The position numbers and the translations under genes were made by a program. Shown here piece by piece: positions 1 to 5,981 of a DNA stretch of 5,981 bases. The DNA is from Desulfobacula sp. GTDB lineage: Bacteria; Desulfobacterota; Desulfobacteria; Desulfobacterales; Desulfobacteraceae. The stretch is from contig JAGLNZ010000728.1 in assembly GCA_023139225.1 (NCBI GenBank), positions 1 through 5,981 on the forward strand. Reading direction: 5' to 3'. Numbering within the stretch: position 1 is the first letter of the stretch; each line of letters begins with the position of its first letter. The notes under the pieces are model-generated. The model was not told the DNA's origin. It searched no databases and saw only the letters and a program-made list of their open reading frames with translations.

Positions 1-1171
1 ATCATCTTTTGCATCTGATAAAACCTGGAAAATCGGTACAATTTTTCCTTTAACCGGTCCTTTGGCAAAAAATGGGATCAATAATTTTACCGGTGTGAAA
101 ATTGCAACCCAGATGATCAATGATAACGGTGGCGTATTAGGCAAGAAAATTAAGCTTGTCAGTGCAGATGCTCCTGAGCCCCAGGCCGCAGCCAGTGAAG
201 CGAATCGGCTTATCACAAATGAGAATGTAAAAGCCATTATCGGAACAGGCGGCTCCAGTCTTTGCATGGCAGCATCGGTCGTTGCTGAAAAGAATAAAGT
301 CTTCTATATCGAAAATGAAGGTGTTTCAGGCCTGATAACTGCGCGAAAATATAAATATCTTTTCAGGACAACTTTCAGCGGCAGCATGATGGCCAATCTA
401 ATGCTTGACTATACAGAGAATGTTCTTGCACCTAAAATGGGAAAAGATCCAAAAAAACTTAGAATTGCAATTATTCATGAAAACGGCGGATTTGGAATAT
501 CAACCGGAAAAGGATTGGCAGCCTATGCCAAAACCCTTGGATTGAAAGTGGTGTTAACTGAAAAATACAATGCCAAAACCGCAGACCTGTCTGGTCTTAT
601 TTTAAAATTGAGAGTGGTTCGTCCTGATATCATTCTGGCAGCCCAGTATGTAAATGATGCTATTTTATTTCATCGACAGGCAAAAGAGTTGAAATTAATG
701 GTTCCCGTACTTGGAACAACCGCAGGGCAGGGGACCCATGATTTTGGAAAAGCGTTGGGACCTGATGCCGATAAGGTTCTTGCCGGTGGTATCCCGGCAG
801 AATTATCAATTGAAAAATTAACCGGAGAACCCCTAAAGATCGCCCGGGAACTGATTGCCCGTTATGAAAAAGACCATAATGGTAAATATCCGTCACCCAA
901 TACTTTTATCGGTTTTGCCGGTGCCTGGATCTTTTATAAATACATCCTTCCGAAAGCTGGAAGCCTTGATCCGGATAAACTGCGTGAAGCAGCATTAAGC
1001 CTGGATATCCCAAAAGGAGAAGGCGTGCTGAACTGGGGGGTCAAATTCGCCGGTATCGGTGCCAAAAATATGGGGCAGAATTTATTTGCCTCGGCCTGTA
1101 TCAATCAATGGCAGGACGGCAAATTAAGACTGGTTTATCCTGAAGTGATTGCAACATCAAAACTCAGATAA
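1..1171 (+). CDS. Periplasmic substrate-binding protein of a LIV-type ABC importer (5' partial)
   Basis: This is the ligand-capturing subunit of the importer encoded downstream. The reading frame is open from the left edge (first full codon at base 2) and gives 389 visible residues, so the gene starts outside the window. The TTG at 62 is internal and not the start, because the family's first beta strand (WKIGTIFPLTGP, visible residues 9-20) lies before it. The first visible residues SSFA followed by SDKTW look like the end of a signal peptide, so little more than the signal sequence should be missing. Family features (Peripla_BP_6, LivJ/LivK-like) include PLTGP, then a GVKIATQMINDNGG helix, the GTGGSS ligand-loop region at about 81-86, and the second lobe beginning near LRIAIIHENGGFG. 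The stop lies 7 bases before livH. The ligand is uncertain: the family also binds aromatic acids, amides and urea, and the adjacent dehalogenase-like gene argues against assuming leucine. Confidence 0.9.
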   Translation, partial: SSFASDKTWKIGTIFPLTGPLAKNGINNFTGVKIATQMINDNGGVLGKKIKLVSADAPEPQAAASEANRLITNENVKAIIGTGGSSLCMAASVVAEKNKVFYIENEGVSGLITARKYKYLFRTTFSGSMMANLMLDYTENVLAPKMGKDPKKLRIAIIHENGGFGISTGKGLAAYAKTLGLKVVLTEKYNAKTADLSGLILKLRVVRPDIILAAQYVNDAILFHRQAKELKLMVPVLGTTAGQGTHDFGKALGPDADKVLAGGIPAELSIEKLTGEPLKIARELIARYEKDHNGKYPSPNTFIGFAGAWIFYKYILPKAGSLDPDKLREAALSLDIPKGEGVLNWGVKFAGIGAKNMGQNLFASACINQWQDGKLRLVYPEVIATSKLR

Positions 1172-1178
1172 TCAGATT

Positions 1179-2105
1179 ATGGATTTATCAATATTTCTTC
1201 AATTGTTAATATCGGGTATTCTGCTGGGTGGAATATATGCCATGTCCAGCATTGGACTGACACTGATTTTCGGTGTGATGAAAATCGTCAATTTTGCCCA
1301 TGGTGAATTTTTAATGCTGGCCATGTATTTTTCTTTTTTTCTGCATCATCTGTTCAAACTTGATCCTTATGTTTCCATCATTATCGTGGCCCCGGCACTC
1401 TTTATCATTGGTATCATACTTTACAAAACCATCATCCGGTACACAATCGGAAAACCGATTCTAACCCAGATTTTTGTTACACTAGGGATCTCCATTGTGA
1501 TAGAAAATTTAGCACTTCTATTTTTTTCAGGAGATTTCAAGGCGGTCACTCTGGATTATCTTCAAGTTCCCTTTTTCTTAGGGCCTTTTGATTCCATTGG
1601 TATTGGCGAAATTATTATAAATCCGGGCCGACTTATTGCGTTTATTACAGGATTGCTGATTTCCGGTGCTTTTTATCTGTTTTTAAAGTTCAGTTATACG
1701 GGAAAAATAATCAGGGCTACTGCCCAGGACCGGACAACTGCTTTGTTAATGGGCATCAATATTGACCGGGTATATATGCTGACGTTTGCCATCGGTCTGC
1801 TTCTTGTGGGAATCGCAGGCTGCCTGATGATCCCTATTTTTACAGTACATCCTTTTGTGGGATTCGAGTTTGTTCTGATCATGTTCGTTGTTGTTGTATT
1901 GGGGGGGCTTGGAAGTATTGTGGGAGCAGTAGCTGCCGGGTTGTTCATAGGTGTTGTTGAGGTCTTTTCAAGCTTTATCATCGGTCCTGACAGTAAACAG
2001 GCAATTTATTTCATTATTTTTATTATCCTTCTGATCATCAGACCTTCCGGGTTATTTGGGATAAAAGGAGAAGAGGAGCTTGAGCGAATTGAAGCAATTG
2101 ATTAA
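1179..2105 (+). CDS. livH: LIV-type ABC transporter permease LivH
   Basis: Inner-membrane permease that forms the translocation channel with LivM. The 308 residues are very hydrophobic, with roughly eight membrane segments. The LivH hallmark GLTLIFGVMKIVNFAHGEF lies at residues 26-44. The cytoplasmic coupling loop that contacts the ATPases is around 175-200 (GKIIRATAQDRTTALLMGI), and the C-terminal LGGLGSIVGA motif is at 241-250. I chose ATG 1179, 7 bases after the binding-protein stop, because it begins right at the first hydrophobic helix. An in-frame TTG at 1149 would add ten polar residues and overlap the upstream gene, which is less likely. No clear Shine-Dalgarno precedes 1179, so translation is probably coupled to the upstream gene. 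The 3' end overlaps livM by 26 bases. The length is normal for the family. Confidence 0.93.
   Translation: MDLSIFLQLLISGILLGGIYAMSSIGLTLIFGVMKIVNFAHGEFLMLAMYFSFFLHHLFKLDPYVSIIIVAPALFIIGIILYKTIIRYTIGKPILTQIFVTLGISIVIENLALLFFSGDFKAVTLDYLQVPFFLGPFDSIGIGEIIINPGRLIAFITGLLISGAFYLFLKFSYTGKIIRATAQDRTTALLMGINIDRVYMLTFAIGLLLVGIAGCLMIPIFTVHPFVGFEFVLIMFVVVVLGGLGSIVGAVAAGLFIGVVEVFSSFIIGPDSKQAIYFIIFIILLIIRPSGLFGIKGEEELERIEAID
2064..2078 (+). promoter_or_regulatory. Tandem Shine-Dalgarno sequences for the livM TTG start
   Basis: Two purine-rich blocks, AAAGGAG (2064-2070) and GAGGAG (2073-2078), lie inside the end of livH. The first is 9 bases before TTG 2080 and the second is 10 bases before TTG 2089. Either could initiate LivM, and they decide the start in the absence of any nearby ATG. 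Both starts give the same protein apart from three N-terminal residues. Confidence 0.6.
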
Positions 2106-3069
2106 AAATATTCGAAACAGCAGTCATCTGCCCTTTGTTTGTTTTTTTCTGGCAGCGGCAGTCCTTCCCCTGTTTGTTGAAAATGATTTTTATCTGGACG
2201 GATTTATTCTTATTTTTATCTGGGCATCATTTTCATCTGCCTGGAACATAATAGCAGGCTTTACGGGAATGGTATCTTTAGGCCATAATGCATTGTTTGG
2301 CATTGGTGCATACTCTTCCACAATTCTTTTAATAAGATATGGTATTTCTCCATGGTTTGGTCTTTTGATAGGCGGAACCCTTGCTGCGGCTGTCGGTGTG
2401 CTGATCGGGGTGATCTGTTTTAGATTGCGCAGTCATTATTTTGCTCTGGCAACCCTTGCATTTGGCGAAGTGATATTTATTCTGGCTATGAATTTTGCGG
2501 ATATCACGGGTGGAGCAGAAGGGATTGCCCTTCCAATTGAACCGGATATCTGGAATATGTCCTTTCAGGGGAAACTGCCATATGTATATTCCGGGCTTAT
2601 CCTTCTAATGATCGTTACAATTGTTTCTTCAAAAATCAAACAGTCTAAACTGGGATACTTTTTAATCGCTTTTAAGGAGAATGAGGATGCGGCAAGAATG
2701 CTGGGGGTTAATACCGGAAGGGCAAGGCTGACGGCCATGGCCATAAGTTCTTTTCTGGCCGCAGTTACCGGTAGCTTTTATGCTCAGTATATTGTGTTCA
2801 TAGATCCGTCCAGTGTCTGTAGAATTCAACTTTCCATTCAGGCGGCACTATTTGCCATTGTCGGGGGGATTGGAACCGTGTTCGGCCCGATTGTGGGGGC
2901 GGTTATCTTTGTGCCGATCACCATTGCGCTCAGAGCAGTGCTGGGAAGTACAATGCCGGGGCTGCATTTGATCATATACGGTTTTATCCTGATAGTTGTT
3001 TTGTTGTATATGCCGCAAGGCATTTTAGGGGCAGCTAAGAATAAATTGTTCCGGATCTCAAACAATTAA
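2080..3069 (+). CDS. livM: LIV-type ABC transporter permease LivM
   Basis: Second inner-membrane permease subunit, partner of LivH. At 329 residues from TTG 2080 it is typical in length. Recognisable LivM motifs are GMVSLGHNALFGIGAYSS (63-80), ITGGAEGI (142-149), the ATPase-coupling loop SKLGYFLIAFKENEDAARMLG (189-209) and GGIGTVFGPIVGA (262-274). Multiple hydrophobic helices run from about residue 18 to 311. No ATG occurs before residue 64, which is inside the conserved core, so a TTG start is required. TTG 2080 has AAAGGAG at 2064-2070 with 9-base spacing; TTG 2089, with GAGGAG at 2073-2078, is a credible alternative. The start lies inside the end of livH, which suggests translational coupling. 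The stop lies within a small inverted repeat that also holds the livG ribosome binding site. Confidence 0.93.
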   Translation: MSELKQLIKNIRNSSHLPFVCFFLAAAVLPLFVENDFYLDGFILIFIWASFSSAWNIIAGFTGMVSLGHNALFGIGAYSSTILLIRYGISPWFGLLIGGTLAAAVGVLIGVICFRLRSHYFALATLAFGEVIFILAMNFADITGGAEGIALPIEPDIWNMSFQGKLPYVYSGLILLMIVTIVSSKIKQSKLGYFLIAFKENEDAARMLGVNTGRARLTAMAISSFLAAVTGSFYAQYIVFIDPSSVCRIQLSIQAALFAIVGGIGTVFGPIVGAVIFVPITIALRAVLGSTMPGLHLIIYGFILIVVLLYMPQGILGAAKNKLFRISNN

Positions 3070-3082
3070 TCCTAAGGATTAA
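3066..3082 (+). promoter_or_regulatory. livG ribosome binding site within a small inverted repeat
   Basis: TTAATCC (3066-3072) and GGATTAA (3076-3082) are perfect 7-base inverted arms around a TAA spacer. The repeat holds the livM stop codon (3067-3069) and the livG Shine-Dalgarno AAGGA (3074-3078), which is 8 bases before ATG 3087. The ribosome binding site is clear. Sequestration by the hairpin is inference; the stem is short and AT-rich with a tight loop. Confidence 0.5.
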
Positions 3083-3086
3083 CATC

Positions 3087-3806
3087 ATGCTGGAATTGAA
3101 AAATATAGAAAAGAAATTTGGAGGGAACCTGGTTCTGCAAGGTATCAGTTTTTCTCTGGAACCCGGAAGAATCACCGGTTTGATTGGCCCGAACGGGGCC
3201 GGTAAAACAACACTTTTTAATGTGATAACCGGGTTTCATAAAGATCATTCAGGAACTGTAATTTTTTCAGGAGATAAGATCACCGGGTTGAATCCGGAAG
3301 ATATTTGTAAAAAAGGCATTTGCAGGACCTTTCAAGTCACAAAGCCGTTTGCAAACATTACATTGACACAAAATGTCATGATAGGAGCCTTGAGCAGGCT
3401 TGAGCGAATAAAGGATGCCAGACGAAAAGCTCAAGAGATCCTTGATTTTGTGGGGCTGTATGAAAAAAGAGAAATTTTGGGAAGAAACTTGACTATAGCG
3501 GACAGGAAAAAACTTGAAATTGCACGTGGATTAGCCACTTCCCCAAAAATATTCCTGCTGGATGAAGTGATGGCAGGCCTTAATGAGAGCGAACTTTTGG
3601 AAATGAAAAAACTCATAAGAAATATCGCTGATTCAGGAATTACCCTTTTGATCATTGAACATATCATGACGGTTATTATGGAGCTTTCCCAAAAGGTCAT
3701 TGTTCTTGATCAGGGGAAATTTTTAACTTCAGGTACACCTGAGCAGGTAACCAAAAATCCTGAAGTTATTAAAGCCTACCTGGGAAAAGAGTTTAAGCAT
3801 GCTTAA
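3087..3806 (+). CDS. livG: LIV-type ABC transporter ATP-binding protein LivG
   Basis: Cytoplasmic ATPase that pairs with LivF to power import through LivH/LivM. The 239 residues contain Walker A GPNGAGKT (34-41), Q-loop Gln83 in RTFQ, Walker B IFLLDE (155-160) with catalytic Glu160, the D-loop region AGLN (163-166) and the H-loop His192 in IIEHIM. The C-terminal stretch TSGTPEQVTKNPEVIKAYLG is characteristic of LivG. The signature motif is divergent: residues 135-139 read LTIAD where LSGGQ or LSYGQ is usual, followed by a normal RKKLEIARGLA helix. A LivG subgroup with LTLxDRKRLE-type signatures and a DEVMAGLN Walker B exists to my recollection, so this is probably a subfamily trait and not decay. 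ATG 3087 has a good ribosome binding site. The end overlaps livF by 8 bases. Confidence 0.94.
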   Translation: MLELKNIEKKFGGNLVLQGISFSLEPGRITGLIGPNGAGKTTLFNVITGFHKDHSGTVIFSGDKITGLNPEDICKKGICRTFQVTKPFANITLTQNVMIGALSRLERIKDARRKAQEILDFVGLYEKREILGRNLTIADRKKLEIARGLATSPKIFLLDEVMAGLNESELLEMKKLIRNIADSGITLLIIEHIMTVIMELSQKVIVLDQGKFLTSGTPEQVTKNPEVIKAYLGKEFKHA

Positions 3807-4503
3807 AATAGAAAATCTAAATTCCTTTTACGGTGATGTTCAGGTGCTTTTTGATGTCAGTCTTCAAATAAACATGGGTGAGACTATTGCAATCGTCGGT
3901 GCCAATGCTGCGGGGAAAAGTACCTTGTTAAGATCCATATCCGGCCTTATCAAACAAAAAAAAGGATCTGTAAGGTTTTTGGAACAACAGATCATCAATA
4001 CGACCCCTTACGAGATCGCTCATTTGGGAATTATTCATATCCCACAGGGCAGAAGAGTATTCCCGCATATGACGGTAAGTGAAAATCTCGCTGTCGGGGC
4101 ATATACCAGGCGAAAGACAATTAAAATGAAACAAAGTCTGGATAAATCATTCAGTATTTTTCCAAAATTGTATGAACTTAAGAATCAGGCAGCAGGATCA
4201 TTAAGCGGCGGTGAACAGCAGATGCTGGCAATTGCCAGGGGGCTCATTGCAGAACCCAGGCTCATTACCATTGATGAGCCGTCCCTTGGTCTGTCACCGA
4301 TTATGGTGGAAAATACCTTTAAAGTGATTGAAAAAATTAATAAGGAAAATGTCACTGTTCTGCTTGTGGAGCAGAATGTTGTAAAGGCATTGGAGCTTTC
4401 AAAAAGAGCGTATGTCCTGGAAAACGGGAAAATAATCATGCAGGGAAAAGGAAAAGATCTCTTAGCTGATGCGCATTTAAAAAAAGCATATCTTGGAATG
4501 TAG
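3799..4503 (+). CDS. livF: LIV-type ABC transporter ATP-binding protein LivF
   Basis: Second cytoplasmic ATPase of the importer. The 234 residues hold Walker A GANAAGKS (34-41), Q-loop Gln83 in IPQGRRVFPHMTV (a strong LivF marker), a canonical signature LSGGEQ (135-140), Walker B LITIDE (155-160) and PSLGLSP (161-167). The H-loop position is Gln192 (LLVEQN), which is normal for LivF. The canonical LivF signature may compensate for the divergent one in LivG, since each ATP site pairs the Walker A of one subunit with the signature of the other. The ATG overlaps the last 8 bases of livG (start 3799, livG stop 3804-3806), with a weak AAGAG 7 bases upstream, so coupled translation is likely. The stop is 14 bases before the dehalogenase-like gene. 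Confidence 0.94.
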   Translation: MLKIENLNSFYGDVQVLFDVSLQINMGETIAIVGANAAGKSTLLRSISGLIKQKKGSVRFLEQQIINTTPYEIAHLGIIHIPQGRRVFPHMTVSENLAVGAYTRRKTIKMKQSLDKSFSIFPKLYELKNQAAGSLSGGEQQMLAIARGLIAEPRLITIDEPSLGLSPIMVENTFKVIEKINKENVTVLLVEQNVVKALELSKRAYVLENGKIIMQGKGKDLLADAHLKKAYLGM

Positions 4504-4506
4504 GAG
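4501..4506 (+). promoter_or_regulatory. Shine-Dalgarno of the rdhA-like gene, overlapping the livF stop
   Basis: TAGGAG includes the livF TAG stop (4501-4503) and lies 11 bases before ATG 4518. The spacing is slightly long but usable. There is no room for a separate promoter or terminator between the two genes, which supports one transcript. Confidence 0.5.
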
Positions 4507-4517
4507 TTGCATCTATT

Positions 4518-5711
4518 ATGGTTGTGAAAAAAAATACTGACAATGTTGTCTATGTGGAAAAAATTGAGAACGAGCCCTATTTTCCCCTTAAAACCTGTGA
4601 TTACCGGTTTGACCAGAGAAATGAAATGTTTAAGCGCAGAACCTGGGATGAAGAGTTTGTCGAACACGGCAACAGGCTTTATCTGGATGCAAAGTATGAT
4701 AATTCACGATATGGTTATCGAAAACTGGATTATGCGTTGAGGAATGCAGCGTGGAATATAGAGTACGGATATGCCTTTGGAAATATGAAAAGCAATTTTG
4801 GGCTCTATTCCTGGGATCATGTGCCGGCCAAGGCAGAACGGTTTGTTAAAAAAGGGTCCAGGGTTGAAAATTCCAAAGAAGTAAATGCGAAAATTATTAA
4901 AAAGGCAGCCGGTTTTCTCGGCGCGGATGATGTTGGGATCTGTTATGCTCATCCAAGTCTTATCTATTCCCACGAAATGGATCTGGTGAAAAATGAGCAT
5001 CGACGGCTTGAACTGCCGAAAGGGTGTACCAACGTTATTGTAATGGCCATTGCAATGGATTATGAGGCCACCAGATATTCACCCGATGCCATTGCCGGTG
5101 CAACAACCGGTCTTGGATACAGCCAGCAGGCCGTTGTTGCCAATTATGTGGCAGCGTTTATCCGCGGGCTGGGTTACACGGCTGTTCCATCCGGCAATGA
5201 TACAGCCGTGTCAATTCCCCTGGCAATGGCTGCAGGCCTTGGAGAACTCGGCAGGATGGGGCTTTTGATTCATCCCGAATTTGGACCCAGAGTAAGACTG
5301 TGCAAAGTATTTACGGACATGCCCCTGCAACATGATGATTTTAGGCCTTTTGGCGTGGAACAATTTTGCAAAACATGTAAGAAATGTGCCAGGCACTGCC
5401 CTTCAAAATCCATTTCTTTTGACGATGAGATCACCCAGACTAAAGGGCCGTCAATTTCCAATCATTCCGGTGTATTAAAATGGTATATCAATCCGGAAAA
5501 ATGTTTTATGTTTTGGGTGAAAAACTGGGTTGACTGCAATAACTGCGTCATGGTCTGTCCCTTTAATAAGCCGGCCGGCCTGCTTCATGATGTTGTCCGC
5601 TATACAATAAAGAGTATACCGATTATGAATCGGCTCATGTTGCTGATGGATGATTTTATGGGATATGGAAAATTTATTAAACAGGAGAACAAGTGCTTCT
5701 GGGAGGATTAA
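4518..5711 (+). CDS. rdhA: Reductive dehalogenase-like corrinoid/iron-sulfur protein (RdhA family, no Tat signal)
   Basis: Family members remove halogens from organohalides using a cobamide and two [4Fe-4S] clusters. The 397-residue product shows the first cluster motif C284-x2-C287-x2-C290-x3-C294-P and the second as C329-x10-C340-x2-C343-x3-C347-P, with the RdhA-style tryptophan-rich stretch between C329 and C340. The core has RGLGYTAVP (216-224), AGLGELGRMG (239-248) and PEFGPRVRL then TDMPL (253-270). The C-terminus DDFMGYGK followed by FWED is also RdhA-like. Tyr187 and Arg246 are 59 residues apart, matching Tyr246/Arg305 of Sulfurospirillum PceA as I recall them; that match needs alignment. 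The N-terminus (MVVKKNTDNVVYVEKIENEP) is hydrophilic, with no twin-arginine signal or membrane helix, so a cytoplasmic location is inferred. No rdhB follows. The related queuosine enzyme QueG is less likely, given the second cluster layout and C-terminus. Substrate and activity are unknown. Confidence 0.87.
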   Translation: MVVKKNTDNVVYVEKIENEPYFPLKTCDYRFDQRNEMFKRRTWDEEFVEHGNRLYLDAKYDNSRYGYRKLDYALRNAAWNIEYGYAFGNMKSNFGLYSWDHVPAKAERFVKKGSRVENSKEVNAKIIKKAAGFLGADDVGICYAHPSLIYSHEMDLVKNEHRRLELPKGCTNVIVMAIAMDYEATRYSPDAIAGATTGLGYSQQAVVANYVAAFIRGLGYTAVPSGNDTAVSIPLAMAAGLGELGRMGLLIHPEFGPRVRLCKVFTDMPLQHDDFRPFGVEQFCKTCKKCARHCPSKSISFDDEITQTKGPSISNHSGVLKWYINPEKCFMFWVKNWVDCNNCVMVCPFNKPAGLLHDVVRYTIKSIPIMNRLMLLMDDFMGYGKFIKQENKCFWED

Positions 5712-5792: not shown

Positions 5793-5981
5793 TTATATTC
5801 CTTTGTCGATAATGTCTTTATCGTGTAATAGTCTTTCCTGGATACCTCTTGAGACTTCCCAGTCTTTTTCAAAATCATTCCAGAAATCCTTGTTATCATC
5901 CTTCCAGCCTTTTCCAAAGCGCAGGTTAAAATGGTTCCCAAGTTTTTCAAACAGAAGTTTCCAGGTGGGTTTGCCATCATT
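5793..5981 (-). CDS. C-terminus of an unrecognised protein (5' partial at right edge)
   Basis: On the minus strand a frame without stops runs from the right edge (codons beginning at 5981) to TAA at 5793-5795 and encodes 62 residues. It begins NDGKPTWKLLFEKLG and ends HDKDIIDKGI. The composition looks like a real soluble protein: charged, with amphipathic helix-like stretches, four tryptophans and a phenylalanine/tryptophan/aspartate-rich segment (KDFWNDFEKDW, residues 31-41). The competing minus-strand frame starting with ATG near 5980 reads less like a protein (MMANPPGNFCLKNLG...) and overruns this stop only slightly, so I regard it as the shadow. There is no start in the window and no family I recognise. 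It converges on the rdhA-like gene and so belongs to a different transcription unit. Confidence 0.6.
   Translation of the reverse strand, partial: NDGKPTWKLLFEKLGNHFNLRFGKGWKDDNKDFWNDFEKDWEVSRGIQERLLHDKDIIDKGI

Follow-up and report, generated by a model that had tools for sequence, protein, structure and literature searches.

A reductive dehalogenase gene behind a LIV-type importer gene set in Desulfobacula, and its possible link to histidine degradation

Why would a gene for a reductive dehalogenase (RDH) stand at the end of a set of genes for an amino acid importer? The question is raised by a contig of Desulfobacula sp. (JAGLNZ010000728.1, assembly GCA_023139225.1), which carries on its plus strand five LIV-type importer (liv) genes and then an rdhA-like gene. 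The window analyzed here is this entire contig of 5,981 bases (C699 of genome G000), and the parent assembly measures 3.5 Mb and is 77% complete. What is new here is that genes of histidine utilization (hut) lie near the RDH gene at all four other liv-RDH loci. Our leading proposal, held tentatively and at somewhat less than even odds, is that the putatively cotranscribed liv-RDH operon would import a halogenated histidine-type compound, strip off its halogen, and feed the product into the Hut pathway.

We looked into the conservation of the liv-RDH adjacency. The window RDH has 4,747 relatives at an E value of ≤1e-10, and in a tree of 90 RDH proteins it fell into a six-member clade with a support of 99, together with L034, L035, L036, L092, and L055. 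The liv genes were found upstream of the RDH gene in all of these except L055, that is, in 5/6 members. Since four other genomes share the adjacency, one of them assigned to another phylum (L034, a metagenome-assembled genome [MAG] named Candidatus Acetocimmeria pyornia and placed by NCBI in the Bacillota), it is more than chance, and the concern of a preliminary description of the window that it might be unique to one genome can be set aside. The gap between livF and the RDH gene is 14 bases in the window, 26 in L036, 59 in L092, 360 in L035, and 747 in L034, where a HutU fragment sits in between; the contig of L035 starts at LivG, and only LivG-LivF-RDH is visible there. L035 (G679:C69) and L036 (G725:C162) were each counted once. 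The tree derives from a table of 91 RDH rows, which covers 87 of the 96 long loci and the window; row L143 was dropped before the tree was built, and the later-fetched loci L157 to L195 lie outside the table. Open reading frames (ORFs) were called by a simple longest-ORF rule, which lost the full-length RDHs of L057, L064, L135, and L150 from the table, and short, partial, or duplicate copies left L048, L049, L061, L069, and L096 without a row. The partial RDH of L096, cut by a contig end and 63% identical, has no liv gene in the 10 kb seen and stands outside the tree.

The hut genes lie within 4 kb of the RDH gene in 4/4 of these other loci. In L036, directly after the RDH gene and on the opposite strand, we found genes for HutI, an FchA-like cyclodeaminase, glutamate formimidoyltransferase, HutU, and HutH. 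In L034, the RDH gene is flanked by HutU on both sides (one a fragment), followed by HutH, a third HutU, and HutI; the three HutU-like ORFs cover positions 9233 to 9706, 11351 to 12994, and 17231 to 18883, and the one between livF and the RDH gene is a short fragment. L035 shows a HutU that is cut by the contig end and contains one in-frame TGA, and L092 shows a second RDH and HutH near the first RDH. This second RDH (positions 10744 to 12243), which adjoins the first, scores over the TIGR02486 cut-off (215.5 bits) and groups in the tree with the RDHs of L109 and L111, in another clade. Neighbors were labeled by BLAST against references from the same loci, with a curated check where an NCBIfam score is named: HutI, FtcD, HutU, and HutH of L036, HutU and HutH of L034, and HutH of L092 all scored over their cut-offs, and the FchA-like protein of L036 scored under its cut-off. 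In the window, the contig ends before any hut gene, and the hut link of the window itself is therefore one that we infer from its relatives. Elsewhere in its genome, C427 encodes HutH (over the cut-off) and C426 encodes HutU, in searches that scored the top candidates per genome.

In the open-access literature, with its incomplete coverage, we found no paper that joins a reductive dehalogenase to histidine degradation or to a LIV importer. The pairing of reductive dehalogenase with histidine ammonia-lyase returned none, and the pairing with urocanate returned papers on flavinylation among the matches listed, as far as their accessible text goes. This suggests that hut-linked or liv-linked reductive dehalogenases are absent from print.

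In the proposed route, the binding protein would capture an imidazole-type carboxylate, and LivHMGF would bring in a halogenated histidine or the deaminated derivative of it. Equipped with a corrinoid and two 4Fe-4S clusters and supplied with electrons by a cellular low-potential donor, the RDH would replace the carbon-halogen bond by C-H. The resulting histidine or urocanate would be degraded to glutamate by HutH, HutU, HutI, and the enzymes of the formimino-glutamate steps. As candidate substrates, 5-bromohistidine or the matching halo-urocanate would fit; according to an excerpt of PMC8659048, 5-bromohistidine occurs naturally in the sponge Aplysina cavernicola.

We then examined the genes of the window, all on the plus strand, which are as follows.

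2 to 1171, plus strand: LIV-type (Peripla_BP_6) substrate-binding protein by Pfam; 389 codons read; the contig end truncates the start
1179 to 2105, plus strand: LivH-type permease (PF02653, 123.9 bits)
2080 to 3069, plus strand: LivM-type permease (PF02653, 143.2 bits); TTG start, 26-base overlap with livH
3087 to 3806, plus strand: LivG-type ATPase (ABC_tran and BCA_ABC_TP_C; NCBIfam LivG 199.9 bits, under cut-off)
3799 to 4503, plus strand: LivF-type ATPase (ABC_tran; NCBIfam LivF 235.4 bits, under cut-off)
4503 to 4506, plus strand: GGAG, like a ribosome-binding site; shares bases with the livF stop codon and precedes the rdhA-like ATG by 11 bases
4518 to 5711, plus strand: RdhA-family corrinoid/4Fe-4S reductive dehalogenase of 397 amino acids (TIGR02486)
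5118 to 5120, plus strand: codon of Tyr201, aligned with PceA Tyr246; invariant in 54/54 and 91/91 sequences
5196 to 5198, plus strand: codon of Asn227, aligned with PceA Asn272; 54/54 and 70/91
5289 to 5291, plus strand: codon of Arg258, aligned with PceA Arg305; 54/54 and 83/91
5367 to 5399, plus strand: first 4Fe-4S motif, CxxCxxCxxxCP (C284, C287, C290, C294); four Cys invariant in 54/54
5502 to 5558, plus strand: second 4Fe-4S set, C329 and CxxCxxxCP (C340, C343, C347); four Cys invariant in 54/54

The intergenic gaps from the binding protein through the rdhA-like gene are 7, -26, 17, -8, and 14 bases, which confirms the gene arrangement given in the preliminary description (one strand, gaps of at most 17 bases, 14 bases between livF and the rdhA-like gene). 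The LivM protein reached 138.6 bits with the NCBIfam LivM model, under its cut-off. No plus-strand sigma-70-like site was found between livF and the RDH start in a promoter scan, which overall did no better than shuffles (8 promoter-like sites against a mean of 5.0, standard deviation [SD] 2.3); the same holds for a terminator scan (3 terminator-like sites against a mean of 2.2, SD 1.6). A search of 10 sources with Rfam for a cobalamin riboswitch or other RNA elements near the loci gave just one tRNA, in L098.

The RDH scored 231.7 bits with TIGR02486 (cut-off 160.35), and the corrinoid-binding reductive dehalogenase fold is predicted to span the whole chain, so that, judged by sequence and predicted structure, it is an RdhA-family enzyme. 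In PceA, Tyr246 acts as the proton donor. A motif scan of the first 60 to 70 residues showed no RRxFxK-like motif of a twin-arginine translocation (TAT) signal, and a hydropathy scan showed no N-terminal membrane helix; the enzyme is predicted to be cytoplasmic. No rdhB stands beside it on the contig, with livF upstream and the end of a convergent ORF downstream. We rejected an identity as respiratory RdhA, given the lack of a TAT signal and of rdhB. As far as we know, substrates have been assigned to few RdhA-like proteins. The unnamed convergent ORF (5793 to 5981, minus strand) resembles stretches in L132, L126, and L123, all with RDH genes.

By Pfam, the LIV/HAAT importer of the window is complete, with a binding protein, two permeases, and two ATPases. 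Residues Ser79, Thr102, Tyr202, and Glu226 of LivJ form the pocket for the branched-chain alpha-amino acid, and Glu226 holds the alpha-amino group. Across 28 aligned sequences, the equivalents of Ser79 and Tyr202 are kept and those of Thr102 and Glu226 are replaced. An importer component stands on the same strand within three ORFs of the RDH gene for 16/91 of the tabulated RDH ORFs. A second liv arrangement, with an RDH gene (35 to 38% identical) between the binding protein and livH, occurs in L109 (8508 to 9644) and L111 (6854 to 8077); the L109 locus also includes molybdenum-hydroxylase-like genes (491 bits with the XdhA model, under cut-off). Six pairs of RDH and binding-protein clusters have equally long longest contigs of >5 kb, among the matches listed (120 each), which suggests further linked contigs; one of the six is the contig of L092.

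According to the preliminary description, the importer may take up a halogenated acid or a compound resembling an amino acid, which would then be dehalogenated in the cytoplasm. This idea is partly supported: the RDH lacks a TAT signal and an N-terminal helix, liv genes precede it in most of its clade, and importers recur near other RDHs, while the existence of related LIV importers without an RDH (L157 and L158) weakens it. The hut link makes this more specific: of all halogenated acids, a histidine or an imidazole-type acid bearing a halogen is now the likely substrate.

We found that RDHs with N-terminal membrane helices adjoin hut genes in two further supported clades. In the first, 5/6 rows are hut-linked (L052, L054, L097, L098, and L101), the sixth, L130, being cut at a contig end, and in all six rows Cys replaces Arg258. 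Two of these loci, L052 and L054, nearly duplicate each other and come from a single assembly, that of the window's own genome; the order in L054 is HutU-FchA-like-HutI-RDH, and in L098 HutH and HutC stand beside the RDH. The RDH of L097 scores just under the TIGR02486 cut-off, at 149.1 bits. In the second clade, 2/3 rows are hut-linked (L099 and L100, not L115), and His replaces Asn227 in the clade. Over the whole table, a hut gene lies on the same strand within three ORFs for 11/91 RDH ORFs. RDH-HutU pairs within 5 kb made up 5/77 in 37 genomes, against 0.22 expected from genome size alone, a rough comparison that ignores shared ancestry (G000, G263, and G218 belong to one family, and G075 and G007 to one genus). 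The genome of the window has further RDH-like genes at L050, L051, L053, L054, and L052 (contigs C423, C52, C547, C426, and C97, respectively), with hut genes at the C426 and C97 loci; by our own reading, TRAP-like transporter genes accompany those of C423 and C547, and a TctC-like binding protein lies near that of C52.

Related loci differ in whether they carry the RDH gene. Within one genus, L097 and L160 have HutU (89% identical), HutI (79%), and the next two genes (68% and 85%) in common; an RDH gene lies between these genes in L097 and is absent there from L160. In the window's genus, an RDH gene follows hutI in 3/7 decidable genomes (G000, G263, and G287) and not in G192, G245, G237, and G275; the contig of G228 ends there. 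In the Bacillota MAG, the RDH gene again stands between liv and hut, and its protein is 68 to 74% identical to the others, compared with 49 to 54% for the liv and 45 to 61% for the hut proteins. From these sequences, the RDH gene looks to have been transferred separately into the same kind of place, although misbinning of contigs is a risk with MAGs. The liv genes of G573 seem to be disrupted, with two TAG codons in the binding-protein frame, a 46-residue RDH remnant follows the livF remnant, and two genes further on match the flanks of L092 (52% and 48%). HutH and HutU were not found in G573 at the thresholds used; small HutU-like and HutI-like ORFs remain elsewhere in this genome (L094). The RDH gene thus behaves as an optional add-on, which would let an otherwise ordinary histidine pathway draw on further compounds.

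The broader proposal, to which we give slightly less credence than to the function of the operon itself, is that RDHs were recruited at least three times into the histidine catabolism of anaerobes, each add-on opening halogenated histidine or urocanate; the liv-RDH set of the window would be the version with a dedicated importer and a first route for the dehalogenation of halogenated histidine. With several RDH clades tied to one defined pathway, halogenated histidine or urocanate can be named as a concrete substrate class that lends itself to testing. Should the proposal be correct, reductive dehalogenation would serve, beyond respiration and the breakdown of pollutants, to recycle amino acids that are halogenated in nature, and the importer would offer a handle for substrate discovery.

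Several observations weigh against a halogenated histidine as the substrate. Most hut loci have no RDH gene, and a binding protein without the equivalent of LivJ Glu226 argues against a free amino acid as the ligand. The window shows no hut gene: its contig ends 270 bases past the RDH gene, and the convergent ORF there matched no hut locus. L055, whose RDH is 68% identical, has neither liv nor hut among its labeled neighbors. In L158 (all five genes) and L157 (no LivG ORF called), relatives of the importer have neither an RDH gene nor hut genes beside them; their binding proteins are 73 to 75% identical to that of L092 and 67 to 69% identical to that of the window. The hut and liv neighbors might thus be incidental, the RDH being a general detoxifying or electron-sink dehalogenase that shares an operon with an ordinary amino acid importer. 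We consider this unlikely, as three separate hut-linked RDH clades, the independent placement in the Bacillota MAG, and the joint loss in G573 are hard to square with accident. Marginally more weight, though still a minor share, goes to a module for halogenated N-heterocycles at large, whether five-membered or fused (imidazoles, hydantoins, pyrroles, and purine-like rings), in which histidine would be one of several end routes and importer and pathway would vary with the ring. The nearest RDH relatives do adjoin diverse genes, so the family probably accepts a broad range of substrates: sister RDHs (54 to 57% identical) have molybdenum-hydroxylase-like or AOR-like genes in their vicinity, in some cases together with liv or TRAP importers (L056, L059, L094, L095, and L177), and those of L057 and L175 lie near hydantoinase/oxoprolinase-like genes, several of these labels being our reading of N termini. 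Moreover, the best solved relative of the window's binding protein holds L-pyroglutamate. Against this breadth, the pathway linked within the window's own clade is histidine degradation, in every liv locus where neighbors are visible. The hydantoinase/oxoprolinase-like genes of L057 (13608 to 17581) and L175 (5375 to 9267) form pairs, accompanied by a CoA-ligase-like gene, as read from the N termini.

It is improbable, in our view, that the enzyme removes sulfur rather than halogen, acting on a thiolated histidine of the ergothioneine or ovothiol type to give urocanate or histidine for Hut. Such a reaction would have the same pathway neighbors, and the Cys in place of Arg258 in one hut-linked membrane-helix clade (6/91 rows) could speak for it; however, ordinary urocanate hydratase is the best-scoring model for HutU of L036, L034 (two full ORFs), and L054, all of which fall under the cut-offs of the thiourocanate and S-methyl-thiourocanate hydratase models, the HutH proteins of L036, L034, and L092 score as histidine ammonia-lyase, and the window enzyme keeps the Tyr/Asn/Arg set of reductive dehalogenases. 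We regard as very improbable an epoxyqueuosine-reductase-like enzyme that performs another reductive reaction and is misnamed a dehalogenase; a QueG-type identity was rejected at 48.8 bits with TIGR00276, against a cut-off of 200. As a separate observation, genes for MttB-like proteins (trimethylamine methyltransferase family) adjoin hut genes in L164 (932 to 2377), L192 (13419 to 14891), and L195 (3219 to 4676); those of L164 and L192 score under the TIGR02369 cut-off, and that of L195 was labeled by BLAST only. The HutU proteins of L192 and L195 have S-methyl-thiourocanate hydratase as their best model, yet under its cut-off, and these loci may represent a route for methylated or trimethylated histidine.

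With the import and dehalogenation of a halogenated histidine-type compound as our preferred reading, we compared the liv-RDH set with known systems. As in Hut operons, the relatives of the window carry canonical HutH, HutU, HutI, and formimidoyltransferase, and the RDH gene is an optional extra, of which we found no description in the open-access literature searched. As in LIV/HAAT importers (LivKHMGF), all five subunits are present, with a pocket that lacks the equivalents of LivJ Glu226 and Thr102. The RDH shares with respiratory RdhA enzymes (PceA of Sulfurospirillum and the 8q4h RDH complex) the fold, two 4Fe-4S sets, and the catalytic Tyr/Asn/Arg of PceA, but it has no TAT signal and no rdhB on the contig, and importer genes stand there instead. 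A TAT signal is given for 16/35 RdhA proteins of Deltaproteobacteria in an excerpt of PMC6299228. Cytoplasmic reductive dehalogenases and putative ones with N-terminal transmembrane helices are already known (Atashgahi 2019, PMC6797604); a term search of the main text of that paper gave no match for transport, histidine, or urocan. The membrane-helix enzymes of that paper belong to the same broad family; this type is present in the window's genome beside hut (L052 and L054), whereas the window RDH lacks the helices. The structure of NpRdhA was solved with 3-bromo-4-hydroxybenzoate. Catabolic enzymes of the NpRdhA/BhbA type are defined by one or more extra fused domains, and BhbA is linked to hydroxybenzoates. 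Like the window RDH, these enzymes have neither a TAT signal nor an N-terminal membrane helix. NpRdhA chains have ∼700 amino acids and align only over about residues 269 to 620, whereas the window RDH, with 397, is about the reductive dehalogenase core alone; it stands last in a LIV operon, and its relatives are tied to histidine degradation rather than to hydroxybenzoates.

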